Positions 59,391-64,000 of a stretch of 64,000 nt of DNA are shown here, piece by piece; positions within the stretch are counted from its first letter, which is position 1; the number at the start of each line of letters is the position of its first letter. Made by a program: the position numbers and the translations under genes. The DNA comes from Bacteroidales bacterium. Its GTDB lineage: Bacteria > Bacteroidota > Bacteroidia > Bacteroidales > GCA-2748055. Location: NCBI GenBank assembly GCA_021738565.1, contig JAIPBT010000015.1, positions 1 through 64,000 on the forward strand, given 5' to 3'. Below the pieces are notes generated by a model. The model was given only the letters and a program-made list of their open reading frames with translations. It was not told where the DNA came from and did no database searches.

Positions 59391-59669
59391 ATAAATAATT
59401 AACATGCAGAATGAAAATCAATTATAAAAACCCTTAATATTATTATAATACATTGAATATCAAATTATTAAAAACTTAACATTAAATTAACATCGAAGTG
59501 TATAATGTTAAAAAAGGCCATCGGTCAACAGGTGCTGGTATTTTGAATGGAGTTTGGGGGGCCATCCGGTCATGTATTGAGAAAAAGCACTCAATATCTT
59601 CTTGTTGAGCTTATAATGCTCTGTTTAAACGGAAAATGGTGCAGCAATATTTTATCCAGTGCAATCCGT
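59391..59669. other. AT-rich intergenic region without a gene
   Basis: Most of the 333-bp gap between the MORN-like gene and nth. No ORF with coding character on either strand. Near 59516 and 59560 a short direct repeat occurs (GGCCATCGGTCA and GGCCATCCGGTCA). No terminator or RNA gene recognised. Confidence 0.5.
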
Positions 59670-60314
59670 TCACTTAATTATGTTTTTCCTGAAATATTTA
59701 CAATAACCGGTTAAAAAGCAGGATTCGCACTCAGGTTTCCTGGCTTTGCAGGTATATCTGCCATGAAGGATCAACCAGTGATGTGCCTTGTGGATAAGTT
59801 CTTCAGGGATATATTTGATCAATTGTAATTCAGCCTGGTGTGGCGTTTTTGCATTATTTGTCAGTCCAATGCGTGCAGCAACCCTGAAAACATGTGTATC
59901 GACTGCCATTGCAGGTTGTTTGAATGCAACCGATAACACTACGTTGGCTGTTTTTCTTCCTACACCCGGTAATTTTTGAAGTTCATCCGAATTGTCGGGC
60001 ACTTTGCAGTTGAAATTGTTGACCAGTGCGCGGGCCATGCCCCAGAGGTGCCTTGTCTTATTATTTGGATATGAACAGGTTTTTATAAGTTCAAATATCT
60101 CTTCCGGGGTTGAAGCCGCAAGAGATGTAGCATCCGGGAATTTTTTAAAGAACAAGGGAGTGATCATGTTCACCCTTTTATCGGTACATTGTGCCGATAG
60201 TATTACAGCAACAAGCAGTTCGTAAGGATCATTATAGTCCAGTTCTGTTTCTGCAACCGGCATCTCGGCTTCAAATCGCTGTATCACCTGTTCGAACAAT
60301 TCAGATCTTTTCAT
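59670..60314 (-). CDS. nth: Endonuclease III
   Basis: DNA glycosylase/AP lyase removing oxidised pyrimidines. 214 aa. Catalytic Lys in SAQCTDKRVN, helix-hairpin-helix LPGVGRKTANVV, catalytic Asp in AVDTHVFRV, and a C-terminal 4Fe-4S ligand set with C-X6-C-X2-C-X5-C spacing (CKARKPECESCFLTGYC). Canonical length. Divergent from the aromatic operon; the 241 bp between its start and the leader ORF hold no other gene. Confidence 0.95.
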   Translation of the reverse strand: MKRSELFEQVIQRFEAEMPVAETELDYNDPYELLVAVILSAQCTDKRVNMITPLFFKKFPDATSLAASTPEEIFELIKTCSYPNNKTRHLWGMARALVNNFNCKVPDNSDELQKLPGVGRKTANVVLSVAFKQPAMAVDTHVFRVAARIGLTNNAKTPHQAELQLIKYIPEELIHKAHHWLILHGRYTCKARKPECESCFLTGYCKYFRKNIIK

Positions 60315-60555
60315 GGAGCATCTACTTCCAATTTATGGTTCAACATTCAAGTGTAAAGCTACAATTATTAAGATATTTCCTTAAGTTTGATGCTTCCTGC
60401 CGTTCCCATGCTACAATGGTTCCATGCTGCCTTTTAATTCAAGGTTGTATTGCAATGACTGAAATAACTGTTAATTTGATAAATTTCATCCCCTGTAGCT
60501 TATAATCTTTGCATTTTTGAATTATAATAATTACGTTTACAAAGTGAAAATTGTG

Positions 60556-60603
60556 ATGTCAAATTTTGGTGCATATTATTTTTATTTTTTGACTTTCAGG
60601 TAG
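60556..60603 (+). CDS. Phe/Tyr-rich leader peptide of the aromatic operon
   Basis: A 15-codon ORF, ATG at 60556 and TAG at 60601-60603, encodes MSNFGAYYFYFLTFR: four Phe and three Tyr, five of them consecutive (YYFYF, codons 7-11). It is followed by mutually exclusive hairpins and a terminator before pheA, the arrangement of pheL-type leader peptides. Stalling at these codons when charged tRNA-Phe or tRNA-Tyr is scarce would permit readthrough. A near-consensus -7 (TAATCTTTG, 60503-60511) lies upstream, with poor -33 spacing. Not homologous by name to any known leader; inferred from sequence logic. Confidence 0.8.
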   Translation: MSNFGAYYFYFLTFR

Positions 60604-60606
60604 TTA

Positions 60607-60635
60607 GTCGGGGATAGATTATGTGTGTACCCGGC
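60607..60635 (+). promoter_or_regulatory. Predicted antiterminator hairpin of the aromatic leader
   Basis: GTCGGG (60607-60612), starting 4 nt after the leader stop codon, can pair with CCCGGC (60630-60635), with one G-U. The second segment is also most of the 5' arm of the terminator, so the two structures exclude each other. A ribosome at the stop codon would cover GTCGGG and allow the terminator; one stalled at codons 7-11 would leave it free. Confidence 0.65.
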
Positions 60636-60655
60636 GTATTCGTCGGGTTTTTTTG
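60629..60655 (+). terminator. Attenuator terminator upstream of pheA
   Basis: ACCCGGCG (60629-60636) pairs with CGTCGGGT (60641-60648) through a 4-nt loop with one G-U pair, followed by TTTTTTG. A strong GC-rich stem and T run, 26 nt after the leader stop codon and about 80 bp before pheA, with no coding gene ending here on this strand. Confidence 0.85.
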
Positions 60656-60732
60656 TTTATATATCACTGTTTAAATCAGGAATTTCACGATTTTAAGAAT
60701 ACAATTTGATGATAATTAACAGTTAACCATTA

Positions 60733-61569
60733 ATGAAACGTATTGCTATACAGGGAGGTTATGGAGCATTTCATGAACTGGCGGCCCAAAAGTACTTTGG
60801 GCAAGAAGAGATAGAGATACTGCCGCGTGATACTTTCAGGGACATGTTGAAATCCCTGGTGAGTCAAAAGTCTGATTACGGGATCATGGCCATAGAAAAT
60901 TCTCTGGCCGGCAGCATTTTGCCTAATTATAACTTATTGAAGGATACGCAAATGCGTATTGTGGGAGAAGTTTATCTCAGGATCAGACAGAACCTCGTTG
61001 CTTTGTCCGGTGTGAAAATTGAGGACATCAAAGAGGTCTATTCCCATCCGATGGCCATTCTTCAATGCAAGAATTTTTTTGACGATTACAATCATATCAA
61101 ACTCGTGGAGAGTGTTGATACGGCGCTGAGTGCAAGGGATATCCGCGATAATAATTCAATGGATACAGGCGCTATTGCAAGCCGGTTTGCAGCTGAAAAA
61201 TATGGTTTGGAGATTCTGGCAGAAGGGATTGAAACCAATAAAATGAACTATACCCGGTTCCTGATCATTACTGATAACGGGCATGACGTTTCTAAGGATA
61301 AGGTTAACAAAGCATCGATTCATTTTGCACTTGCCCATAAAATCGGGTCTTTGTCAAAAATATTGTCAATATTTTCTTTTTATGAGATCAACCTTGCTAA
61401 AATTCAATCTATGCCTATAATCGGTAAGGATTGGGAATATCTGTTTTATGTTGATCTTGAGATTGAGAATTATGAAATGTATATGAAATCTCTTGAGGCG
61501 ATCAAACCTTTTACATCCGGTCTGATGATCATGGGTGAATATATCAAAGGAGAAGTTTATTTGGATTAA
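60733..61569 (+). CDS. pheA: Prephenate dehydratase with ACT domain
   Basis: Converts prephenate to phenylpyruvate, committed to Phe. 278 aa. N-terminal QGGYGAFHELAA, catalytic-type segment NSLAGSILPNYNLL, TRFLIITDN, and a C-terminal ACT domain (about 195-275; HKIGSLSKILSIFSFYEINL) expected to bind Phe for feedback. No chorismate mutase domain here; it is fused to the next gene's product. First structural gene after the attenuator. Confidence 0.94.
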   Translation: MKRIAIQGGYGAFHELAAQKYFGQEEIEILPRDTFRDMLKSLVSQKSDYGIMAIENSLAGSILPNYNLLKDTQMRIVGEVYLRIRQNLVALSGVKIEDIKEVYSHPMAILQCKNFFDDYNHIKLVESVDTALSARDIRDNNSMDTGAIASRFAAEKYGLEILAEGIETNKMNYTRFLIITDNGHDVSKDKVNKASIHFALAHKIGSLSKILSIFSFYEINLAKIQSMPIIGKDWEYLFYVDLEIENYEMYMKSLEAIKPFTSGLMIMGEYIKGEVYLD

Positions 61570-61583
61570 TTTTAATTGTTATC

Positions 61584-62669
61584 ATGGTTGTAAATGTACA
61601 ATTAGAGCCCTTGCTTATTGAGGGGTTAGATATCAGGAGGCCACTGATTATGGCCGGACCATGCAGTGCTGAATCAGAAGAGCAGGTAATGCAGACTGCC
61701 AAGGAAGTTGCTGCTGCAGGTGTTAAGATCTTCAGGGCAGGCATCTGGAAACCAAGGACCCGGCCGAATGCATTCGAGGGAGTTGGGTCGGTGGGATTGC
61801 CATGGCTGCAGCAGGTGAAGAAAGAAACGGGAATGCTGGTCGCAACGGAAGTGGCCAACGTTAAACATGTATATGAAGCTCTAAAGTATGGGGTTGATAT
61901 TATCTGGATCGGAGCCAGGACCTCTGCCAACCCTTTTGCAGTCCAGGAGATTGCAGACAGCCTGAAAGGGGTCCGGATCCCTGTTTTTGTTAAAAATCCT
62001 ATCAACCCTGATGTAGACCTCTGGATAGGTGCCATTGAAAGGATCAACCAGGCGGGAATTACAAGCATGGCTGCAATCCACCGCGGTTTTTCAAGCTATG
62101 ATAAGACGATCTTCAGGAATGCACCGCATTGGCAGGTTCCTATTGAACTCAGGAGGAGGATTCCTGAGCTTCCCATAATTACTGATCCGAGTCATATTTG
62201 CGGCAACCGTGATTTGATATTCGATATCAGTCAGAAAGCTATGGACCTTGGTTTCGAAGGGCTGATCATCGAAACACATATTGATCCCGATAAAGCCTGG
62301 AGCGATGCGAAGCAACAGGTGACCCCCAGGTCTTTAAAGGAGATATTGGACAGGTTGATAATGAGGGATCCCGAAATAGATGCTGATCTGATGCTTACAC
62401 TCGCTGGACTTCGGGACAAAATTGATAAGTTTGACGACAGGCTGATCAATTTAATGGAGGAGCGGATGAAAGTCGCTGAAGACATCGGCCATTATAAAAA
62501 AGAGAACAACATTACGATCTTTCAGAACAAGAGATGGGATGATATGCTGCGAAGCCGCATTATTCTTGGCAATAAAAAAGGACTTAGTGAAGATTTCATT
62601 AACAGGGTCTTCAGGGCCATTCACCAGGAGTCCATCAACAAACAAACAAGTATAATGAATAATGATTAA
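61584..62669 (+). CDS. Bifunctional DAHP synthase / chorismate mutase
   Basis: 361 aa. Residues 1 to about 255 are a KDO8P/DAHP synthase barrel (MAGPCSAESEEQV, GIWKPRTRPNAFEGVG, IIWIGARTSANPF, DPSHICGNRDLI), which condenses PEP and erythrose-4-phosphate. Residues about 270-355 are an AroQ chorismate mutase (LAGLRDKIDKFDDRLINLM, then HQESI). This fusion joins the first shikimate step with the branch to prephenate, the substrate of pheA 15 bp upstream. The mutase part may also provide feedback control of the synthase. Confidence 0.94.
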   Translation: MVVNVQLEPLLIEGLDIRRPLIMAGPCSAESEEQVMQTAKEVAAAGVKIFRAGIWKPRTRPNAFEGVGSVGLPWLQQVKKETGMLVATEVANVKHVYEALKYGVDIIWIGARTSANPFAVQEIADSLKGVRIPVFVKNPINPDVDLWIGAIERINQAGITSMAAIHRGFSSYDKTIFRNAPHWQVPIELRRRIPELPIITDPSHICGNRDLIFDISQKAMDLGFEGLIIETHIDPDKAWSDAKQQVTPRSLKEILDRLIMRDPEIDADLMLTLAGLRDKIDKFDDRLINLMEERMKVAEDIGHYKKENNITIFQNKRWDDMLRSRIILGNKKGLSEDFINRVFRAIHQESINKQTSIMNND

Positions 62670-62674
62670 GATGC

Positions 62675-63703
62675 ATGGATGAACTCCCGTTACATATAAA
62701 CAATCACAATTCTTTCATACGGATCGGGTCCGGTTTGTTTGATCAGCTTGATGCGTATCAAAACAGAAAAATCATTTTCCTTGTAGATGAGAATGTTTAC
62801 CGGTTGCATCGCAAAAAATTCAAGGAAAGGGAGTGCATTGTTATTCCTTCCGGAGAGCAGCATAAAAGTCCTGCATTCGCGACTGAATTATACCGTGAGC
62901 TTTTAAGGTTGCAGGCAGACAGGGATGCTTTCATTATCGGGGTCGGAGGAGGACTGGTAACAGACCTTGCAGGTTTTGTTGCTTCAACCTATATGCGAGG
63001 AATTGAATTCGGATTCATTTCAACTACCCTGCTTGGACAGGTTGACGCAAGCATCGGGGGAAAGAATGGGCTTAATCTTGATGGTTATAAGAACATGATC
63101 GGTGTTATAAGACAGCCGGAATTTGTACTGTGCGACCTTGATTTTCTTGATACGCTTGACCAAAATGAACTTGTTTCAGGTTTTTCGGAGGTAATCAAAT
63201 ACGGGGCGATACGCGATCGACAGCTTTTTGAATTTCTGGAGAACAATTACAGTGACATAATGAAACGTGACAGGGATGCCCTGGTACACATAATCAAAAG
63301 ATCCTGTGCCATTAAAATTGATGTTGTTCAATCCGATGTTCAGGAGGAAGGTGAACGAAAACTGCTTAATTTTGGACACACCATTGGTCATGCCATAGAA
63401 AAAATATCTGGAATGCTGCATGGACATGCCATTGCTGCAGGTATGACGCTGGCCGCCAGGTTATCTGTGAAATTGGGATTTATGCAAATTGAGGAATCAA
63501 CACGATTGCTCCACTTGATTGAATTATCAGGATTGCCTGTAAAAACAGATCTGCGGCCCGAAACGGTCTATCACGCGCTCTTAAAAGATAAAAAACGATC
63601 CGGGGATCATATTAATTTCATACTCTTACAGCGAATAGGAGCAGCTTTCATCCATAAAATACAGAACGAAGAATTAAAATCTGCCATCCATGATCTGTAT
63701 TAG
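62675..63703 (+). CDS. aroB: 3-dehydroquinate synthase
   Basis: NAD and metal-dependent cyclisation of DAHP to 3-dehydroquinate. 342 aa. Signatures: GVGGGLVTDLAGFVASTYMRGI, STTLLGQVDASIGGKNGLN, SEVIKYGAI, LNFGHTIGHAIE (zinc His) and KDKKRSGDHINF. It begins 5 bp after the synthase gene and its stop lies within the next gene (14-bp overlap). Confidence 0.96.
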   Translation: MDELPLHINNHNSFIRIGSGLFDQLDAYQNRKIIFLVDENVYRLHRKKFKERECIVIPSGEQHKSPAFATELYRELLRLQADRDAFIIGVGGGLVTDLAGFVASTYMRGIEFGFISTTLLGQVDASIGGKNGLNLDGYKNMIGVIRQPEFVLCDLDFLDTLDQNELVSGFSEVIKYGAIRDRQLFEFLENNYSDIMKRDRDALVHIIKRSCAIKIDVVQSDVQEEGERKLLNFGHTIGHAIEKISGMLHGHAIAAGMTLAARLSVKLGFMQIEESTRLLHLIELSGLPVKTDLRPETVYHALLKDKKRSGDHINFILLQRIGAAFIHKIQNEELKSAIHDLY

Positions 63704-64000
63704 TATTGGAGATGAAACAATTATTCCTGAAGTCAACAGGATAAAACCATCCCTGGTTGAGGTGAGGTATGACCTTTTGTCATCGGCACCGGCACTGGTT
63801 TCCGGAAAAATCGAAAAGGAGATACAGCAGGTTGCAACATGCCGCCCCGGTAAGTACAGTGATGTGGAAAGATTGAAAATATTGAAAGAAGCACTGGAAT
63901 ACGGTGCCGCTTTTGTTGATGTTGAAATCGACTCGGATGAGCAGTACATTGCTGAAATAAAAGATCTTGTCATTAAACGGAATGCCCACTTGATCTTTTC
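63690..64000 (+). CDS. aroD: 3-dehydroquinate dehydratase type I, partial (cut by window end)
   Basis: Starts at ATG 63690 inside the last codons of aroB and stays open to the window end (103 codons). It reads MICISIGDETI, then VEVRYDLLSS, ATCRPGKYSD and AAFVDVEIDS; EVRYD and T-x-RP are landmarks of class I dehydroquinases, whose Schiff-base lysine would lie beyond the edge. Next step after aroB, which supports the call. Only the N-terminal part is seen; later shikimate genes may follow. Confidence 0.85.
   Translation, partial: MICISIGDETIIPEVNRIKPSLVEVRYDLLSSAPALVSGKIEKEIQQVATCRPGKYSDVERLKILKEALEYGAAFVDVEIDSDEQYIAEIKDLVIKRNAHLIF

Follow-up and report, generated by a model that had tools for sequence, protein, structure and literature searches.

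A putative ribosome-mediated attenuator for phenylalanine and tyrosine upstream of pheA in Bacteroidales and related bacteria

The stretch that we analyzed (64,000 nt from a Bacteroidales bacterium, hereafter the window) contains, just upstream of an aromatic amino acid operon, what is very probably a real and functional attenuator. Judging from the sequence and its relatives, we put the probability that this element is a ribosome-mediated transcription attenuator, sensing how much charged tRNA-Phe and tRNA-Tyr is available, at roughly 0.88. At the level of sequence, we can see the element's parts, their conservation, the covariation of its pairing arms, and a regular spacing. The features in the window are listed in Table 1.

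Table 1. Features of the pheA leader and operon in the window
Feature	Position	Strand	Remarks
Predicted Bacteroidota-type promoter, TTTG-N20-TACGTTTA	60508..60539	+	Regular-expression match, just 5' of the leader ORF
Leader ORF, MSNFGAYYFYFLTFR	60556..60603	+	15 codons; ATG at 60556-60558, TAG at 60601-60603
Putative antiterminator 5' arm, GTCGGG	60607..60612	+	18 nt past codon 11, 3 nt past the stop codon
Putative antiterminator loop, includes TATGTGTG	60613..60628	+	Possible pause site or helix extension
Terminator 5' arm, ACCCGGCG	60629..60636	+	CCCGGC at 60630-60635 can also pair with the antiterminator arm
Terminator 3' arm, CGTCGGGT	60641..60648	+	Repeats the sequence of the antiterminator arm
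T run (U-tract) of the intrinsic terminator	60649..60654	+	Six T
pheA, prephenate dehydratase (PDT), first structural gene	60733..61569	+	PF00800, E = 1.5e-56
DAHP synthase fused to chorismate mutase (DAHPS/CM)	61584..62669	+	PF00793, PF01817
aroB, 3-dehydroquinate synthase	62675..63703	+	PF24621, PF01761
aroD (start)	63690..64000	+	PF01487; gene extends past the window
aroC and tyrA-like gene	Same contig, beyond the window, after aroD		PF01264, PF02153

Seven of the 15 codons of the leader ORF are aromatic (codons 4, 7, 8, 9, 10, 11, and 14), and the predicted sensor codons, 7-11, read Tyr-Tyr-Phe-Tyr-Phe. An intrinsic terminator (60629-60654) sits between this ORF and pheA. Its stem has 8 base pairs (60629-60636 with 60641-60648) and a 4-nt loop and is followed by six T. 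The putative antiterminator shares a strand with the terminator, as 60607-60612 can pair with 60630-60635. The distance from the stop codon of the ORF to the end of the terminator is about 50 nt, and the RNA from 60553 to 60660 folds with -26.7 kcal/mol (z = -3.33). The first-pass annotation of this DNA, which was made from the letters alone, had described a 15-codon ORF with seven aromatic codons that stops at 60601-60603, a GTCGGG that can pair with CCCGGC, and a terminator stem that shares the CCCGGC and is followed by a T run and pheA. All of these are present at the positions that it gave.

We propose that the element works as follows. If both charged tRNAs are ample, the ribosome would reach the stop codon of the leader and cover GTCGGG. 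CCCGGC would then pair with the 3' arm of the terminator, and RNA polymerase would terminate before pheA. If Phe or Tyr is short, the ribosome would stall within Tyr-Tyr-Phe-Tyr-Phe, with its leading edge just short of GTCGGG. The exposed GTCGGG would capture CCCGGC once it is transcribed, which would delay the terminator, and pheA-DAHPS/CM-aroB-aroD-aroC-tyrA would be transcribed. Because a single run contains codons for both amino acids, a shortage of either should suffice. The ribosome stalling, the termination, the kinetic choice between the two hairpins, and this OR logic are what we infer.

To quantify how often such a leader arises by chance, we used a detector that requires an ORF of 8-50 amino acids with at least 5 F/Y/W in 9 residues and a terminator located -45 to +130 nt from the stop codon of this ORF. 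In its strict form, the terminator must have at least 4 G-C pairs. Across both strands of the 64 kb, the strict detector had a single match, which was the pheA leader; this leader is far above chance. With a threshold of at least 6 aromatic residues, which 104 of the 109 strictly positive loci (see below) reach, the strict detector matched just twice among 2180 dinucleotide shuffles and twice among 1708 windows taken elsewhere in these loci. At the threshold of 5, these counts were 24/2180 and 17/1708. The strict terminator rule missed modules (such as those at L150, L153, L188, and L193), so we gave it up and allowed terminators with 3 G-C pairs and loops of up to 12 nt. With this relaxed detector, 112 of 119 positive loci have at least 6 aromatic residues, as compared to 4 of 1190 shuffles (46/1190 for at least 5). 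The ORF on its own is also informative: 117/149 regions and 42/1490 shuffles have 6 or more aromatics within 9 residues. The terminator alone is unremarkable, with 2 terminator-like sites in 59500-61500 versus 1.6 expected.

We collected 208 regions upstream of pheA from relatives, contigs of named genomes, the phylum, the class, and extra stretches. Excluding 16 duplicates left 192 regions, of which 188 were at least 200 nt long and were examined with the relaxed detector (L026, L074, L090, and L097 were shorter and were dropped). The first-pass annotation had suggested looking in relatives for an aromatic-rich ORF and an alternative pairing at this site. We found an aromatic ORF with a terminator upstream of pheA in 119 of the 149 regions that are from the class or from named genomes, and covariation of the pairing in a set of 33 divergent loci (described below). 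By group, the relaxed detector found the module in 1/1 regions from the source genome, 3/3 from its genus, 20/20 from the family, 6/8 from the order, 41/56 from the class, and 48/61 from named genomes. It found none in 39 regions (29 loci and 10 stretches) from other classes of the phylum, which is a sample of only part of the phylum matches. The strict detector gave 109/153 and 0/39. One of the 119 positives, L161, is probably false, and it was left out of the clustering, the covariation and spacing analyses, and the stalled folds.

No module was detected in 30 of the 149 regions. Two of these (L163 and L167) have clear leaders that the detector missed, and several others look like real negatives. 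The detector found no module in the Prevotellaceae records L084, L085, L086, L088, L092, L093, and L096 or in the Saprospiraceae records L076 and L087. By eye, at L131, L143, and L183, pheA lies directly behind another coding stretch and lacks an aromatic leader of its own. Separately, a match to prephenate dehydratase was found in only 42 of 159 genomes of the class, as compared to 206 of 238 in the phylum sample; the low count for the class may reflect auxotrophy, divergence, or the search prefilter.

Among 19 near relatives (five loci of the family, L005 and L022-L025, were left out of this comparison), leader positions 8-11 are F or Y codons in 75 of 76 cells, and most positions on either side of the aromatic run drift. 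As far as these sequences go, the ORF keeps its Phe/Tyr content and not its sequence. Over the 15 leader codons of these 19 relatives, third positions vary no more than second positions do (entropy 0.80, 0.96, and 0.96 for the three codon positions). The first-pass annotation had also suggested that the mixed codons reflect sensing of both amino acids, and the comparison agrees with this: all 33 divergent leaders contain both Phe and Tyr codons, and 116 of the 119 leaders have at least two of each.

The 33 divergent loci are representatives that were selected greedily so that they share less than 60% identity with each other. (We dropped a clustering by shared 9-mers, which lumped 113 of 118 loci together; its 6 representatives showed weak covariation, with 939 of 20000 permutations scoring as high as the real pairing.) In the 33 loci, the duplex between the arm and its own terminator scores 16.9, versus 12.9 if terminators are permuted, and 0 of 20000 permutations scored as high, although this is not a strict probability because the 33 loci still share ancestry. 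The arms vary, and include GTCGGG, GCGAGGT, TCGAGACTTT, AGAAGCGGT, and CCGGGATTT. Some are weak, such as TTCCA in L028 and AGAC in L083. Across all 119 loci, a CCCGG-type core is common to many arms and terminators, and the leader's own terminator is in the top tenth of all terminators for just 47 of the 119.

The position of the arm follows the aromatic run. In the 33 loci, the arm starts a median of 13 nt past the run (interquartile range 10-15, standard deviation 4.6), as compared to a standard deviation of 17.0 in shuffles. The arm starts 7-19 nt past the run in 30 of the 33 loci, versus 24% in shuffles; the other 3 lie outside this zone. Relative to the stop codon, the arm starts anywhere from -34 to +5 nt (standard deviation 10.5) and so never more than 5 nt past it, and the distance from the arm to the terminator also varies (standard deviation 10.2). 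In other words, the arm may be past the stop codon, as in the window, or within the last codons, and its distance from the sensor codons is kept. The leading edge of a bacterial ribosome usually reaches some 10 nt past the codon in the A site, so with a median of 13 nt, the arm would begin just outside a stalled ribosome. This spacing looks like the ruler that a stalled ribosome would impose.

The predicted promoter would place the start of transcription near 60545. The regular expression had two other matches, but the one at 60509 is the same site and the one at 60551 is within the leader ORF. Upstream of the leader, a TAnnTTTR motif can be made out by eye in all 17 sequences from the source genome, its genus, and its family; the available excerpts of PMC9723704 describe a TAnnTTTG promoter box. 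Between the terminator and pheA, the regular expression had no match in the window. The gene on the other side of the leader encodes an endonuclease III-like protein and is divergent, so the terminator can act only on pheA's own leader transcript.

The distance from the terminator to pheA bears on whether the leader might act on translation instead, by reinitiation or by masking the start of pheA. In 8 of the 33 divergent loci, the terminator ends just 11-25 nt upstream of the PDT match. This is close enough to suit an effect on translation, and it also leaves no space for a promoter in between. In the window, the hairpin is 84 nt upstream of pheA. Furthermore, a T run lies behind the hairpin (seen directly in the window, and part of the detector's definition for the other positives), and the competing strand pairs with an arm of the terminator and not with the start of pheA. 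We consider a translational effect in place of termination to be very improbable.

The first-pass annotation described the operon as pheA-DAHPS/CM-aroB-aroD. The profile matches support these genes, but the operon does not end there: aroC and the tyrA-like gene continue it, for a total of six genes (pheA-DAHPS/CM-aroB-aroD-aroC-tyrA-like). That the operon includes both pheA and a tyrA-like gene fits with the sensing of both Phe and Tyr.

When folded separately, the antiterminator and the terminator differ little in energy: those of the window have -12.1 and -13.1 kcal/mol, and the means are -15.1 and -15.2 kcal/mol (33 loci, with the window's locus counted twice, n = 34). We then considered the nascent RNA of the window, up to the 5' arm of the terminator, with a ribosome at various positions. 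With codons 6-13 in the A site, the antiterminator is complete (-11.8 to -13.8). At codon 14, two thirds of it can form; at codon 15, one third; and with the A site at the stop codon, it cannot form. More broadly, the nascent antiterminator forms in 31/33 loci with a stalled ribosome and in 0/33 with a ribosome at the stop codon, but this test is partly circular because the arms were chosen as the best duplex. These folds of the window, along with the spacing, support the first-pass proposal that a ribosome at the stop codon would mask GTCGGG and that stalling at codons 7-11 would expose it.

Folding energy calls for an amendment to that proposal. If the finished terminator is present along with a stalled ribosome, the minimum-energy fold contains the terminator in 23 of 33 loci and the antiterminator in 9. 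In the window, the terminator is in the best fold at every stalled codon that we tried. Since most stalled cases favor the finished terminator, the switch would have to be kinetic, with timing deciding the outcome. The arm resembles the 3' arm of the terminator, which makes strand exchange possible, so the antiterminator would have to last only until the polymerase passes.

Without a ribosome, the nascent RNA folds into the antiterminator in 18 of 33 loci. In a search for a protector hairpin, we found that the arm pairs upstream in 14 of these 33 ribosome-free folds, including the window's. If the full-length leader is left untranslated, its fold contains the terminator at all 33 loci, and at that of the window, the arm pairs with leader codons.

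The predominance of the finished terminator is also what would be expected if this were a fixed, unregulated, partial terminator, with an aromatic ORF that is incidental or encodes a functional small protein. We think that this is improbable. The leader keeps its Phe/Tyr content rather than its sequence, and a fixed terminator leaves the covariation between arm and terminator and the spacing between arm and aromatic run without a role. Also, with a divergent gene upstream, the terminator does not serve any upstream gene.

A sequence between the arm and the terminator might be related to timing. TATG occurs there in 16 of the 33 loci, as compared to 8.9 ± 2.2 in shuffles, and GTATG in 9 of 33, versus 2.3 expected. 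(In the window, this motif lies within 60619-60626; among relatives, it is in or out of the reading frame.) The distance from the TATG to the arm varies from 1 to 15 nt, and the loop of the antiterminator adds to the antiterminator's fold (mean z = -1.28), so TATG as a pause site stays a lead.

A terminator with an alternative pairing could also belong to another kind of sensor, such as a T-box, an aromatic amino acid riboswitch, or an RNA-binding protein, with translation of the ORF not being the signal; such systems do use these parts. At gathering scores, no Rfam family (Phe_leader and T-box included) matched in the window, and none matched at 18 loci. A permissive Rfam scan of 60480-60740 gave seven matches, all of them far below the gathering scores (the best had E = 0.096), and neither Phe_leader nor any other leader family was among the seven. 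Also, the roughly 50 nt from the stop codon to the end of the terminator leave scant space for an aptamer, and another sensor would not explain the aromatic codon run or the ribosome-sized spacing. Hence, another sensor is highly unlikely.

A ribosome-mediated attenuator at pheA has a classical precedent. The enterobacterial pheA attenuator (pheL; Phe_leader in Rfam) has a short ORF that is rich in the cognate codons, a terminator, and an alternative pairing, and the position of the ribosome is the signal. Our element resembles it, on sequence grounds, in its short ORF with cognate codons, its terminator before pheA, and its alternative pairing. However, the leader in the window mixes Phe and Tyr codons; the arm of these leaders is directly past the stop codon or within the last codons; a conserved 1:2 pause hairpin is at most putative in them; and the operon in the window is a six-gene shikimate-Phe-Tyr operon. 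The Ilv, His, and Trp leader-peptide attenuators of Proteobacteria illustrate that one leader can sense several amino acids (ilv), but those are from another group of bacteria and have other RNA sequences. A literature search for leaders that combine Tyr codons with Phe codons found no paper.

According to the first-pass annotation, no such system is known to have been characterized experimentally in Bacteroidota. Leader-peptide attenuation in this phylum is not wholly unreported, though: in a 2021 study of Flavobacterium psychrophilum, the available excerpts mention strong clues for leader-peptide attenuation upstream of amino acid operons, as well as structured elements upstream of pheA and hisG that are conserved in Flavobacteriaceae (PMC9723704). 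These elements probably belong to the same set as the leader in the window. The pairing arm, the spacing, and the range beyond the family do not appear in those excerpts of PMC9723704. In Bacteroides thetaiotaomicron, short ORFs that are reminiscent of leader peptides are noted in excerpts of PMC7366714. According to excerpts of a paper from 2010 (PMC2965389), whose own case is from the Firmicutes, leader-peptide systems were, to those authors' knowledge, previously found only in Proteobacteria and Actinobacteria. In our searches of the open-licence literature, we found no account of this geometry, of the class-wide range, or of the mixing of Phe and Tyr, nor of tandem modules (below) at amino acid operons of the phylum. 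The logic is classical; what is unusual is how widely the system ranges, the rule for the arm's spacing, the predicted sensing of two amino acids, and the copies in tandem.

At 14 of the 119 loci, two aromatic leader-terminator modules are in series upstream of pheA (L005, L017, L022, L023, L036, L044, L047, L048, L065, L077, L083, L089, L169, and L180). Each of the two modules is aromatic-rich and comes with a terminator of its own, although the second module of L169 is less certain. In 12 of these 14 loci, both arms are 7-19 nt past their runs. Several of these loci seem closely related to each other (L022/L023; L017/L044/L047/L048; and L065/L089). A second module that starts with ATG and has at least 6 aromatics was found upstream of the last leader at 10 of 118 loci, as compared to 3 of 3540 shuffles of this upstream part; with at least 5 aromatics, the counts were 12/118 and 19/3540. 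In the window, the detector found a single module only. Two short ORFs in series within one leader are also seen in the tandem attenuators of Salmonella's mgtCBR, but according to the abstract of PMC3641672, those ORFs sense ATP and proline, whereas both modules of the tandem pheA leaders are aromatic-rich. With tandem modules of one specificity, nature provides a test of how serial attenuators shape the response.

It seems to us an even bet that the class relies on a pared-down kind of ribosome-mediated attenuation to control amino acid synthesis in general (Phe/Tyr, His, Trp, and Ile/Val/Leu leaders are present in one genome), with the Phe/Tyr arm one footprint past the sensor codons and often within the last codons, and with stacked modules that sharpen the response. 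If so, translation and transcription would be closely coupled in Bacteroidota, which to our knowledge has hardly been studied. The pheA leader is a concrete, conserved, and easily testable case of a ribosome in Bacteroidota that would need to stay in step with RNA polymerase. One leader responsive to either amino acid would handle what takes several regulators in E. coli. An arm that starts about 13 nt past the sensor codons gives a quantitative rule for finding more switches, and attenuation would account for short ORFs and 5' elements without a counterpart in Rfam.

The source genome itself (G000) has short ORFs that are rich in His, Trp, and Ile/Val/Leu, with terminators, upstream of hisG (L234), trpE (L250), and ilvD (L271), respectively. 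The ilvD leader, MKSNRLHIILVLLVVVIVNTPG, has a 10-nt arm that is 18 nt past the run. The arm of the hisG leader, MSVISLHNRHHVVHHHFNSD, is off the spacing rule, at 32 nt past the run, and for the trpE leader, MLLRNTNNNWWWNFDTC, just a 4-nt arm was found.

Overall, a His-rich ORF is upstream of hisG in 24 of the 28 loci that we read, and a detector that includes the terminator was positive for 20 of 27. Of these 20, 14 have their arm 7-19 nt past the run. (L210, whose contig is cut and which was perhaps read at the wrong place, is not in the set of 27.) A Trp-rich ORF with a terminator is upstream of trpE in 15 of 17 loci; this set leaves out the weak trpE-like matches L257-L268 and a second copy, L269. 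The Trp leaders do not follow the spacing rule, as just 7 of the 15 arms are in the zone. For ilvD, 14 of 19 loci were read, and the clear leaders are just L270 and the source genome's own L271. The detection of ORFs upstream of hisG, trpE, and ilvD is without a shuffle control. We saw no leader upstream of thrA in the source genome, but 3 of 12 regions upstream of thrA (L320, L321, and L324) have an ATG-started ORF that is rich in Thr and Ile and is followed by a terminator.
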